NCBI GenBank assembly: GCA_002163135.1
Contig: MAAN01000021.1
Location: forward strand, 1-64,000
Reading direction: 5' to 3'
DNA: 64,000 bases
Origin: Alphaproteobacteria bacterium 46_93_T64
GTDB lineage: Bacteria; Pseudomonadota; Alphaproteobacteria; Sneathiellales; Sneathiellaceae
The position numbers were made by a program, and so were the translations under genes. The notes beneath the pieces were generated by a model. That model searched no databases and was not told the DNA's origin. It was given only the letters and a program-made list of their open reading frames with translations. This document shows positions 19,398 through 33,481 of this stretch, in pieces. Numbering within the stretch: the first letter of the stretch is position 1; the number at the start of each line of letters is the position of its first letter.

Positions 19398-20090
19398 TCA
19401 AATCGAGAGGGGTAATTCTGTACTGGTCTTGCGAGATGGGATTGGCATTAACCCGCAAGTCCTTAATACCGTTACAATAATAGAGTTTGTCGCATCTTCA
19501 AAGTCGGCATCAGTAAGACCTTCGGCGTTGCCCAGAAGGGCACTCCACTGAACTTCGAAATCCGCCCATGTTTGGGTCATGGCCCAGATATGGAAAATCA
19601 GTTTTGTGCTATCAATAGGCGCCATTTTTCCTTGTTCAATCCATGTGTCCAGAATATTGGCTTTTCGCCCAACCCAAGCCTTCAGGTCACCCGAAAGATA
19701 CTCATTAATACGCGGGGCACCTCGGATAAGTTCGTTGGCAAAGACACGAGAGGCTTCCGGTCTGTTCTTGGATAGCTCCATCTTGGCTCGGATATAGTCT
19801 GCCAATGTCGAGGCGGGGTCGTCTTCTGCAGTGATTTCTCTAAATGAGGACAGCCACAATTCAACGATATCATTGATTACTGTACGATAGAGTTTTTCCT
19901 TAGTGCCAAAATAATAGTGGATATTGGCCTTTGGTAGCCCAGCAGCTTCCGCTATAGCGGCAGTTGTTGCTCCGCGAAAGCCATTGTCTGCGAAAACTCT
20001 TTCAGCAGCTTCAAGGATACGCTTCTCGTTTTCTTGACGAATACGACCTTGATTCCCGTTTATATCAATATTCTTGTCTTTTGACGCCAT
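19398..20090 (-). CDS. rutR: TetR-family regulator, RutR-like (pyrimidine catabolism)
   Basis: The 230-residue protein has an N-terminal TetR helix-turn-helix (AAIAEAAGLPKANIHYYF at about 44-61) and a C-terminal domain similar to E. coli RutR/YcdC. Matching features are EASRVFANELIRGAP, the SGDLKAWV-type helix and the KLIFHIWAMTQTWADF helix. RutR responds to uracil and represses pyrimidine-degradation genes. Two palindromes close to its box lie before preT and in the dihydropyrimidinase/nitrilase intergenic region of this window, which strongly supports the assignment. An earlier ATG at 20138 would add 16 residues with no clear ribosome site. No such box is visible before this gene, so autoregulation is not evident. 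Confidence 0.82.
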   Translation of the reverse strand: MASKDKNIDINGNQGRIRQENEKRILEAAERVFADNGFRGATTAAIAEAAGLPKANIHYYFGTKEKLYRTVINDIVELWLSSFREITAEDDPASTLADYIRAKMELSKNRPEASRVFANELIRGAPRINEYLSGDLKAWVGRKANILDTWIEQGKMAPIDSTKLIFHIWAMTQTWADFEVQWSALLGNAEGLTDADFEDATNSIIVTVLRTCGLMPIPSRKTSTELPLSI

Positions 20091-20284
20091 CACTAGACCA
20101 CTTATTGCTATGTTAAGGTTTGATTGTGTTGCTAACATCTCTGTTTTTCAAGCGTTTTTCTCATACAAAAATAAATAGTGGTAATCCAAACAATTGGCAT
20201 TGCTCTTGCCAGCAAAAAAGATATACCTTGGAACATAACATGAACATTTATTTTCCACTTAAGCCCGAAAGGTGAATTAGTGCG

Positions 20285-21124
20285 ATGTTACATAATAATA
20301 AAAATGCCCACTTTGCTGCCCTCCATAAACGTCCTGGAACATTTGTAATACCAAATCCTTGGGATGTGGGATCAGCGAAGATGCTCACAACATTGGGAGC
20401 GGAAGCTTTAGCAACGACGAGTGCAGGTTATTCATTCGCTAAAGGAGTGAACAGCTCTGTGGGAACTTTAACACGAACCGAAGTTCTATCGCATGCAAAA
20501 GAGATCATTGACGCGACGCATCTGCCGGTAAGTGCAGATCTTGAAAACGGATATGGAGACAGCCCAGAAGAGGTTGCTAAAACAATCGAACTTGCCATCG
20601 AAATCGGATTAGCTGGTTGTACGATAGAAGACGCAACAGGGGATATTGACAATCCTTTGTATGACAAATCGCTCGCGATTGAGCGAATTACAGCCGCTGT
20701 CGAAACTGCGAGAAGGTTGGATCCGAACTTTGTCTTAACGGCACGTGCTGAAAATTATTTATTTGGACGCAATGATCTGGACGATACGTTGGAACGCTTG
20801 TTGGGGTACGAGGCCGTCGGTGCGCATGTTTTATACGCGCCGGGCTTGCCCGATGTTGAAACGATCCAAAGGGTTTGTAAAACTGTGAATACTCCGATCA
20901 ATGTGGTTGCAGGTATTGGGCTTGCTGGTGTGACGTTTGGGCAATTACAAACAGCAGGAGTGAAACGGATTAGTCTGGGATCTGCGCTATCGCGTGTTGC
21001 CTATGGTGCCATGATCTCTACGTTTAATAAAATTTTGCAAACAGGGTCTTTCGATGATTTCTCTAATGCAGCTTCATTCTCTGCCTTAGATAGTTTGAAC
21101 CGACGCGCGGATCAATTCATCTAG
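20285..21124 (+). CDS. Isocitrate lyase/PEP mutase family enzyme
   Basis: The 279-residue TIM-barrel protein starts with FVIPNPWDVGSAKML and contains SADLENGYGDSPEEV, both typical of the PEP-mutase/methylisocitrate-lyase superfamily. The catalytic KKCGH loop of true isocitrate and methylisocitrate lyases is absent. The protein therefore belongs to the less defined branch, which includes oxaloacetate decarboxylases and phosphonopyruvate-type enzymes. It is divergent from the RutR-like gene and precedes preT in the same direction. A link to disposal of the C3 products of pyrimidine breakdown is possible but only inferred. Confidence 0.78.
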   Translation: MLHNNKNAHFAALHKRPGTFVIPNPWDVGSAKMLTTLGAEALATTSAGYSFAKGVNSSVGTLTRTEVLSHAKEIIDATHLPVSADLENGYGDSPEEVAKTIELAIEIGLAGCTIEDATGDIDNPLYDKSLAIERITAAVETARRLDPNFVLTARAENYLFGRNDLDDTLERLLGYEAVGAHVLYAPGLPDVETIQRVCKTVNTPINVVAGIGLAGVTFGQLQTAGVKRISLGSALSRVAYGAMISTFNKILQTGSFDDFSNAASFSALDSLNRRADQFI

Positions 21125-21290
21125 AGTTTTGATTCGAACAAATTTAAACGAGTGTGTACCGATTAAGAATAGATTGCGATCAAGTTTGCCTTTTGGTTGT
21201 ACATTTACCTGATTGATGCCCAAAACGAGCACATGCCATGCAATGCAAGTCGCAGTATTCTGCGGTTTGCATTTATTTTTCTAATTAAAC

Positions 21291-21306
21291 TTGACCGTTT
21301 GGTCAG
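21291..21306. promoter_or_regulatory. RutR-type operator before preT
   Basis: The 16-base sequence TTGACCGTTTGGTCAG matches 12 of 14 fixed positions of the E. coli RutR box TTGACCAnnTGGTCAA. Its left half doubles as a good -35 element (TTGACC), followed after 18 bases by TATGGT at 21315-21320 as a possible -10. A bound repressor would therefore block the preT promoter directly. It lies 75 bases before the preferred preT start. Confidence 0.78.
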
Positions 21307-21381
21307 TTTTTGACTATGGTTTTTCTAGGGAAAAAGCCGGCACAAGCTGGTATGATAAAATCTGGGCTAGGAAAATTTGAA

Positions 21382-31865: not shown

Positions 31866-31890
31866 CCTCGGTAAATTTCCGAGGCTATTT
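31863..31890. terminator. Bidirectional terminator between paralogue 3 and dihydropyrimidinase
   Basis: The nine-base perfect stem TAGCCTCGG (31863-31871) / CCGAGGCTA (31879-31887) is flanked by TTT on the plus side and by TT-rich bases on the minus side. It overlaps the stop codon of paralogue 3 and sits 22 bases from the end of the convergent dihydropyrimidinase gene. Confidence 0.75.
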
Positions 31891-31912
31891 CTTAAATGGA
31901 TGCGGTTATTAA

Positions 31913-33352
31913 CTACCGTTTGACGCTACGCGGTGCATGACGCTCCCGGCGTTTAGCGAGTGCATCGAAATGAGAGTTGAAGGTTGGGCGCTTGATATAG
32001 CGACCAGCCCCTTTAACCACATTCAGTTGACCATCCTTATAAACCACATTGCCCTGACTGATCGTGTGGCTTGGAGAGCCTTTAACTTCCATGCCTTCAA
32101 AGATGTTAAAATCAACATTTTGATGATGGGTTTTCGCTGATATAGTTCGTGTCATTTCAGGATCCCATACGACGATATCCGCGTCGGCACCGACACTGAT
32201 AGAGCCTTTACGTGGGTGAATATTGAAAATCTGTGCGGCATTCGTTGATGTAGCCTTCACAAACTCATTCATTGTCAGGCGTCCGGCATTAACGCCGTGA
32301 TGCCAAAGAACCGCCATACGATCTTCAACGCCAGAAGTTCCGTTAGGGATCAATGTAAAGTCATCTTTACCGGCTGCTTTTTGCGGCGCACAGAAACAAC
32401 AGTGGTCTGTGGCAGTTGTTTGCAAGTTACCTGATTGCAAACCGTGCCAAAGTTCACGTTGGTGACTTTTGGGACGGAAAGGAGGGCTCATCACGTGGGC
32501 CGCGGCAAATTCAAAATCATCATTGTAATAAACGCTGTCATCAACAAGAAGATGGCCTGTAAGCACTTCACCAAAAACGCGTTGGCCTTCCAAGCGGGCG
32601 CGGGTAATGGCTTCTAACGACTCTTTACAAGACACATGCACAATATAGATGGGTGTATCTATAACCTGTGCCGTTCGGATCGCCCGGTTCGCGGCTTCGC
32701 CTTCTACTTCAGGTGGGCGAGATTGTGGATGACCTTCAGGGCCTGTGATCCCTTTTTTGAGCATTTCCTGCTGAAGGTAATACACCATTTCACCGTTTTC
32801 AGCGTGAACCGTTGCCATGGCACCAAGTTCGCGGCAGCGGTTAAAGCTGGCGAGCATCATTTCGTCAGAGACCATAATGGCATTTTTATAAGCCATGAAA
32901 TGCTTGAACGAGTTAATGCCTTCTTCTTCTGCAAGAATACCCATATCCCGGTGAACCGTGTCATCCCACCAAGTAATAGCTACATGGAAGCTGTAATCAG
33001 CAACAGATTTTTCAGCCCAACCGCGCCATTTTTGATAGGCTTCGATGATTGGCTCTTCAGGGGATGGGATCACGAAATCAATAATTTGGGTCGTTCCGCC
33101 AGCAAGCGCTGCGGCGGTTCCAGTGTAGAAGTCTTCTGACGCCACTGTCCCCATAAACGGGAGCTGCATATGAGTGTGAGGATCAATACCGCCCGGCATG
33201 ACATATTGCCCGCCAGCGTCTACAACCTCGGCACTGGACGGTACTTCCAGATTTTCGCCGATGGCTTTGATAACGCCGTCTTCGCAATAAACATCTGCCC
33301 GAAAGGTTGTTTCAGAGGTAACGACTGTGCCGCCACGTATCAATGTTGACAT
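31913..33352 (-). CDS. hydA: Dihydropyrimidinase (hydantoinase)
   Basis: This enzyme hydrolyses dihydrouracil or dihydrothymine to N-carbamoyl-beta-amino acids, the second step of reductive pyrimidine breakdown. The 479-residue amidohydrolase has the metal motif [13 protein letters not shown] near 57-69, the carbamylated Lys in [10 protein letters not shown] near 150, and further metal His in TVHAENGE and YIVHVSCKE. Two ATG codons lie close together. The one at 33352 has an AGGAG site six bases upstream, while 33358 directly abuts it, so 33352 is chosen. It is divergent from the nitrilase, with a RutR-type box between. Confidence 0.95.
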
Positions 33353-33465
33353 TCCCATCTCCTGTTTTATCTATCCCAGATCAGATCCAGCCGGTTTTTC
33401 GTCAATATGGTTCCGGCAGTTTTGTCTATTTTAGCTTTGCCTTTTGAAAAAGGACAGTTAAAATC

Positions 33466-33481
33466 CTGACCAACTGGTCAA
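33466..33481. promoter_or_regulatory. RutR-type operator in the dihydropyrimidinase/nitrilase divergent region
   Basis: CTGACCAACTGGTCAA matches 13 of the 14 fixed positions of the E. coli RutR box TTGACCAnnTGGTCAA and is almost a perfect palindrome. It is 114 bases from the dihydropyrimidinase start and 40 bases from the nitrilase start, placed to control one or both. The regulator is presumably the RutR-like protein encoded at 19398-20090. Confidence 0.85.

Follow-up and report, generated by a model that had tools for sequence, protein, structure and literature searches.

The stretch of DNA considered here, called the window in the following, comprises 64,000 nucleotides (positions 1 to 64,000 of the forward strand of contig MAAN01000021.1, GenBank assembly GCA_002163135.1) from Alphaproteobacteria bacterium 46_93_T64, a member of the Sneathiellaceae, and is part of contig 14 of a 4.0-Mb genome. 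It encodes a TetR protein (19398–20138, minus strand) together with genes of the reductive route of pyrimidine breakdown, among them preT and the dihydropyrimidinase gene hydA. This protein is very probably a RutR/PydR-type repressor of the genes for pyrimidine breakdown and of further genes for nucleoside uptake located outside the window. The evidence consists of sequence, conservation, co-occurrence and the geometry of the preT promoter, and from it we infer DNA binding, repression, ligand and operon extent.

The regulator

In Pfam the protein encoded at 19398–20138 shows the two domains of the RutR family, i.e. TetR_N (55.4 bits, cut-off 24) and the C-terminal domain PF08362 (164.4 bits, cut-off 25). 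The genome contains 11 TetR matches including this protein, and it gives the sole PF08362 match at E 0.001 (the same family search also matches E. coli), which confirms the RutR-like C-terminal domain already attributed to it in the preliminary description. Its alignment with E. coli RutR covers 180 amino acids with no gaps and 40.6% identity. The equivalents of the five residues listed as uracil contacts of RutR in a figure legend (W77, Y97, W167, Q171 and Q179; PMC10891134) are all kept, and the recognition helix reads KANIHYY where E. coli RutR has KTNLLYY. The nearest named relatives belong to Sneathiella species. In a quick tree, from which 20 near-identical or partial rows were excluded, the protein clusters with other regulators from Sneathiella, and these belong to a larger set whose genes mostly adjoin those of the reductive pathway (a label that we set from search matches). 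By these sequence tests it is RutR-like in build and not an orthologue of E. coli RutR.

Operator boxes

Two palindromes are predicted as operators. Box 1 (TTGACCGTTTGGTCAG, 21291–21306, plus strand) lies before preT and box 2 (CTGACCAACTGGTCAA, 33466–33481, without assigned strand) between hydA and a nitrilase-type gene. Compared with the 14 fixed letters that we take to be the RutR consensus they show 2 and 1 mismatches, respectively, so both the positions and the 12 and 13 matching bases reported beforehand could be reproduced. The E. coli rutA–rutR intergenic region contains TTGACCGTTTAGTCCA with 3 mismatches to these letters, and thus the window sites fit the presumed consensus better than E. 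coli's own site.

Simple counts of palindromes were at or near chance in window and genome and were dropped as evidence. With up to 3 mismatches the window contains 4 sites versus 3.59 expected from shuffling, and with up to 2 mismatches the genome contains 28 versus 22 for the reversed pattern. Fifteen of these 28 places were inspected as loci; matches located in coding frames (metH-like, ribosomal-protein and others) were attributed to chance, and two weak matches are intergenic (L011, located before an rpoB-like gene, and L013). The whole-genome scan that had been proposed earlier was also made with the strict form YTGACCRNNYGGTCAR, which was defined after sight of the reported sites. The genome contains three copies of it (versus 1 for the control), namely at 21291, at 33466 and, outside the window, at 29640 of contig 31, each time preceding a row of proposed target genes. 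Across 41 regulator-positive genomes the strict form was found 114 times versus 28 for the control, and in six regulator-negative Sneathiella genomes (totals were summed for this genus alone) 5 times versus 2. Two sites on contig 24, at 22348 and 47028 (L129 and L128, TTGAC[C/T]ATCGGGTCAA), are not of the strict form and were set aside as further targets. These palindromes are nearly identical to each other, one of them stands before a protein resembling a 2Fe-2S molybdenum-hydroxylase subunit, and they are perhaps the box of another regulator.

In spite of counts at chance level the two palindromes can be considered real because their positions are conserved across genomes. The region from 300 bp upstream to 60 bp into each gene was searched with up to 2 mismatches at preT (30 of 41 genomes sampled), hydA (30 of 59) and two PnrA-like importers described below (importer 1, 30 of 56; importer 2, 26 of 26), with 300 permuted palindromes scored on the regulator-positive loci as control. 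The regulator was counted as present from at least 140 bits upwards (next matches at most 54.3 bits) and a preT orthologue required at least 54% identity (any match at threshold was seen in 49 genomes); both cut-offs were chosen after sight of the lists. The box was detected in 21/26 regulator-positive preT loci and in 0/4 regulator-negative ones. For hydA the figures are 18/29 and 1/1, for importer 1 14/21 and 1/9, and for importer 2 12/22 and 1/4 (here genomes). The single regulator-negative hit at both hydA and importer 2 comes from the same genome (G006), and since this assembly is just 66% complete its regulator may simply be missing from it. Permuted palindromes matched on average 0.02 (preT), 0.03 (hydA) and 0.01 (importer 1) loci with maxima of 1, 3 and 1, and over all four targets the mean was 0.01–0.03 with a maximum of 3. 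In Sneathiella alone 12/12 preT and 15/15 hydA loci examined carry the box (the hydA set includes G006); outside this genus it is patchier, being absent from five preT and eleven hydA loci of regulator-positive genomes.

Regulator and preT also occur together. Among 191 genomes 37 contain both, 4 the regulator alone, 4 preT alone and 146 neither, a table to which a Fisher test was applied. In seven relatives (L049, L052, L053, L055–L058) the regulator gene and preT point away from each other and have the box in between, and in some others (L048, L051, L065) a box is present at the regulator's own promoter. Of these, L048 belongs to Sneathiella chinensis and carries a box upstream of preT as well. 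Regulator and both importer boxes are retained in two Sneathiella genomes (G015 and G023) in which a search at E 1e-60 gave no match to preT or hydA. In both of them the regulator is divergent from an M20-type carbamoylase gene; in G023 (L054) the two genes are separated by a box with 1 mismatch, and in G015 (L292) no strict box was found. Two Sneathiella genomes with no regulator match (G016 and G008; L214 and L215) show box-like sequences with 2 and 3 mismatches before importer 1, possibly the result of decay after loss of the regulator.

Geometry of the preT promoter

The first arm of box 1, TTGACC at 21291–21296 (plus strand), is the predicted −35 element of preT, followed at 18 bp by the predicted −10 element TATGGT (21315–21320, plus strand). 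In all 21 boxed preT loci the gene-distal arm reads TTGAC. The spacing was analysed in 20 of them (in G038 the sequence after the box did not extend far enough, and in loci with two boxes the one nearer to the gene was used) by a fixed-spacing test that was devised after sight of the −10 score rows. TAnnnT stands at 18 bp from the arm in 19/20 loci, at spacings of 14–17 and 19–22 bp in 0/20 and at 23 bp in 1/20; among non-Sneathiella loci it is found at 18 bp in 7/8. Since box 1 appears to contain the −35 element, RNA polymerase would be kept from the promoter by a bound dimer, and the arrangement suggests repression of preT by promoter blocking. An operator arm that apparently serves at the same time as −35 element offers a concrete promoter mechanism, clearer than the first reading of the sequence had given.

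At hydA the picture is weaker. A possible −10 hexamer, TGTCCT (33451–33456, minus strand), follows the TTGACC of box 2 at 19 bp. TAT is located at this spacing in 13/17 loci and TAnnnT in 9/17, and elsewhere in Sneathiella the hexamer is TATCCT or TATCAA, a pattern that the window's own hexamer does not fit.

Targets beyond the window

The third strict box (contig 31, 29640–29655) lies about 75 bp upstream of a gene for a PnrA-like (Bmp) binding protein, the first gene of importer 1. On the same strand follow genes for an ATPase, two permeases, purine-nucleoside phosphorylase, deoC, an aldehyde dehydrogenase, deoA, deoB and adenosine deaminase. The regulon had been described as complete; in view of this box before a nucleoside importer elsewhere in the genome that description was too narrow. 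Importer 2, also PnrA-like, was found as a target through boxes in relatives: ten relatives showed additional strict boxes, many of which were read in context, several in coding frames were left uncounted, and seven led to this importer, which is probably also part of the regulon. On a gammaproteobacterial contig (L106) two boxes, at a distance of one gene from its regulator, are flanked by deoA–deoC–aldehyde dehydrogenase-type genes on one side and by a nucleoside transporter of a different type on the other; one of them overlaps the start of the transporter gene as called mechanically. As read from the sequence, one regulon seems to unite nucleoside uptake with base release and ring breakdown. 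The likely regulon of this lineage is thereby extended to genes of nucleoside uptake and to deo genes, and no report linking RutR with nucleoside or deo genes was found in the open-access literature searched.

Proposed mechanism

The repressor dimer would sit on boxes of the TTGACCAnnTGGTCAA type, at preT over the −35 element, where binding would exclude RNA polymerase, as the conserved promoter geometry suggests. A rise in uracil or thymine, supplied by nucleosides and bases taken up by the cell, would bring the ligand into the C-terminal pocket, an effector assigned by homology. The ligand-bound dimer would then release the DNA (release by uracil or thymine is transferred from E. coli RutR), allowing expression of the preT–preA–ureidopropionase–ABC (ATP-binding cassette) importer operon as well as of hydA and the nitrilase gene. 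The same boxes, placed before the row from importer 1 to adenosine deaminase and weakly before importer 2, would enable one regulator to cover nucleoside uptake, base release and ring degradation. RutR-type control appears to follow the task, i.e. the use of pyrimidines, and not one enzyme pathway.

In other bacteria the chain of nucleoside import, deoxyribose and pyrimidine catabolism is under separate nucleoside regulators. Tentatively, and with somewhat less than even confidence, we suggest that in the lineage studied here, distinct from that of E. coli RutR, one RutR-family repressor could act as single base sensor from nucleoside import over deoxyribose catabolism to breakdown of the pyrimidine ring. 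As sister branches use the same box beside purine genes, the ligand and not the operator would then separate the regulons.

Weighing of the evidence

Several observations speak against a pyrimidine-responsive repressor with these targets. Regulator-positive loci that lack a box at up to 2 mismatches are not rare (preT 5/26, hydA 11/29, importer 1 7/21, importer 2 10/22), related Sneathiella genomes are not independent samples, and in the genome studied here importer 2 is preceded by nothing better than a weak box with 3 mismatches (contig 30, 24614). In one genome (G025) a regulator paralogue differing at two of the five contact positions is encoded directly upstream of importer 1, and no box was found before the importer there. 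Mean −10 scores show no clear gain over controls at any promoter, and TAnnnT at 18 bp was seen in 0/13 importer-1 loci. Since the spacing was not seen at importer 1 and is weak at hydA, the promoter-blocking mechanism is proposed for preT only. The RutR equivalog model TIGR03613 gives the 19398 protein 189.9 bits, below its curated cut-off of 368, so by that model it is not an E. coli-type RutR. In the quick tree E. coli RutR groups with the second regulator copy of three Roseobacteraceae/Paracoccaceae loci (99% in the Shimodaira–Hasegawa-like approximate likelihood ratio test, SH-aLRT). As several branches are long, including that of E. coli RutR, which entered as a stretch of 179 residues, the tree serves merely as a guide. 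The three loci concerned (L087, L104, L122) are pyrimidine clusters with two tandem RutR-family genes from two branches of this tree, which differ in their recognition helices and have the five contact residues complete in both copies.

Of 117 aligned rows 96 have the complete set of uracil contacts. Even in a separate, mostly gammaproteobacterial branch of 54 rows, which is without the label of reductive-pathway neighbours, the set is complete in 37, a further point on the opposing side. The contacts were consequently rejected as proof of the ligand, as most of the family keeps them. Eight loci without the reductive-pathway label were inspected for context. One of their regulators (L070), with the same five pocket residues, adjoins urate oxidase, ureidoglycolate lyase and a xanthine/uracil-type permease, and two others (L062 and L074, with Y97 replaced by V and F) adjoin xanthine-dehydrogenase-type genes. 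In L074 the same box even stands between such a gene and an ABC importer, with a PF08362-type regulator on the contig according to Pfam; both this case and L070 count on the opposing side. In L086, like L074 a gammaproteobacterial contig, the same arrangement of box, xanthine-dehydrogenase-type gene and ABC importer was assigned by resemblance, and a PF08362-type regulator is likewise encoded there. Box and pocket are thus largely family features as judged from these comparisons, and since the contacts are kept family-wide and the same box stands beside purine genes, neither of them proves a pyrimidine ligand. The regulator could accordingly bind the boxes and respond either to a later intermediate of the route (dihydrouracil or ureidopropionate) or to a nucleoside or a base derived from purines. 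The presence of purine-nucleoside phosphorylase and adenosine deaminase in the regulon would agree with this, as would G015 and G023, which retain regulator and importer boxes with no match to preT or hydA. We regard another ligand as unlikely, though as the most serious competitor, in view of window enzymes that centre on uracil and thymine, of the crystallisation of E. coli RutR with uracil (described in PMC10891134), and of the position of L062, L070 and L074 within the separate 54-row branch, where Y97 is lost in 17 rows.

Two other explanations concern the palindromes themselves. The TetR protein might control its neighbours alone, represented by the gene resembling phosphoenolpyruvate (PEP) mutase at 20285, with the palindromes belonging to one of the other TetR proteins of the genome. 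In line with this, no box was found at the promoter of the regulator gene or upstream of 20285, the best match in 20100–20330 having 6 mismatches. Across genomes, nevertheless, the presence of the box tracks this very regulator, its co-occurrence with preT is close, and relatives with regulator and preT in divergent orientation have the box between them, so that we consider a different owner of the boxes very improbable. That both palindromes are chance matches would agree with their number in the window, which equals the shuffled expectation, yet this has next to no probability: the same promoters are boxed in every Sneathiella preT and hydA locus examined, the spacing at the preT promoter is conserved, and within this genome the strict form is found only before proposed target genes. 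A RutR/PydR-type repressor acting on these boxes accounts for the data best, and no new class of regulator is needed.

Genes of the window

Box 1 ends 75 nt before the likely ATG start of preT (21382–22737, plus strand). This start is preceded by AGGAAAA and is preferred to the mechanical start of the open reading frame (TTG at 21310) on the basis of the sequence and because the alignments with most relatives, the closest excepted, set in at residues 14–30. The preT gene is followed on the plus strand by preA (22755–24029), encoding a dihydropyrimidine dehydrogenase subunit (NCBIfam PRK08318, 717.2 bits, cut-off 335), and by a gene for an M20-type carbamoylase (24043–25278). The latter is a candidate beta-ureidopropionase with 507.9 bits to the N-carbamoyl-beta-alanine amidohydrolase 8c46 in PDB; higher scoring but less precisely named are the deacylase 5thw (647.2), 5i4m (633.1) and 4wjb (573.5). 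Genes for the ATPase, two permeases and an NMT1-type binding protein of an ABC importer follow on the same strand according to profile matches (25381–29338); judged by its context this importer is probably responsible for pyrimidine uptake.

In the opposite direction hydA (31913–33358, minus strand) encodes a dihydropyrimidinase (TIGR02033, 608.9 bits, cut-off 393.25). On the other side of box 2 a nitrilase-superfamily carbamoyl hydrolase is encoded (33521–34393, plus strand), by its PDB matches the second candidate beta-ureidopropionase. It reaches 190.8 bits with both 5h8i, an N-carbamoylputrescine amidohydrolase, and 2vhh (CG3027-PA), which we take to be the fly beta-ureidopropionase, and 180.4 bits with the beta-ureidopropionase 8pt4. 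Two unrelated candidates for the same step, of M20 and nitrilase type, thus stand one behind each box. In one relative (L082) the nitrilase type stands behind preT–preA and the stretch gave no M20 match, and in another (L111) the M20 type was found with no nitrilase match.

Apart from four genes, the contents of this region represent the reductive route from uracil and thymine to beta-amino acids together with a transporter. One of the four is the gene between regulator and preT (20285–21124, plus strand), a member of the PEP mutase/isocitrate lyase superfamily (PF13714, 236.3 bits). It is located between regulator and preT also in L047 and adjoins the regulator in L050, L051 and L065; at that place no match was found in the other Sneathiella loci. 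The remaining three are tandem related genes for small secreted binding-protein-like products of about 250 amino acids each, situated between ABC importer and hydA (29406–31865). In Pfam two of them gave no match and the third a weak SBP_bac_3 match under the cut-off, and a single copy of such a gene occurs in one relative (L049). The absence of the oxidative Rut pathway, as claimed previously, holds for its key enzyme RutA (TIGR03612), the one Rut protein searched for, with 0 matches in the genome.

Comparison with known systems

The central idea of the present analysis is already known, since PydR and the RutR regulons predicted in 2016 are in print. The paper of Hidese et al. 2012 (PMID 22782928), cited in PMC7332683, describes by its title PydR of Pseudomonas putida as RutR-like and as repressing the gene for the dihydropyrimidine dehydrogenase of the reductive route. 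This is the same tie between regulator and route as proposed here; P. putida belongs to another bacterial class, and the likeness is that of the function named in the title. The earlier proposal that a relative of RutR runs the reductive route is supported for both units of the window by conserved boxes and co-occurrence, and as a principle it has its precedent in PydR. Leyn et al. 2016 (RegPrecise, PMC5343134) predicted RutR regulons of pyrimidine catabolism across Proteobacteria, in total 273 sites and 743 genes distributed over 13 groups and 68 genomes, and Sneathiella is not mentioned in the accessible part of that source.

With E. coli RutR the 19398 protein shares the TetR_N plus PF08362 architecture, 40.6% of 180 aligned residues, the uracil contact residues and the type of box. 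It differs in its recognition helix (KANIHYY versus KTNLLYY), in its position on another branch of the quick tree and in its score under the RutR equivalog cut-off, and E. coli RutR controls the oxidative rut operon. Set beside these systems, the Sneathiella regulon as read from the genomes is well conserved within its genus and functionally coherent, and it is apparently larger than first read.

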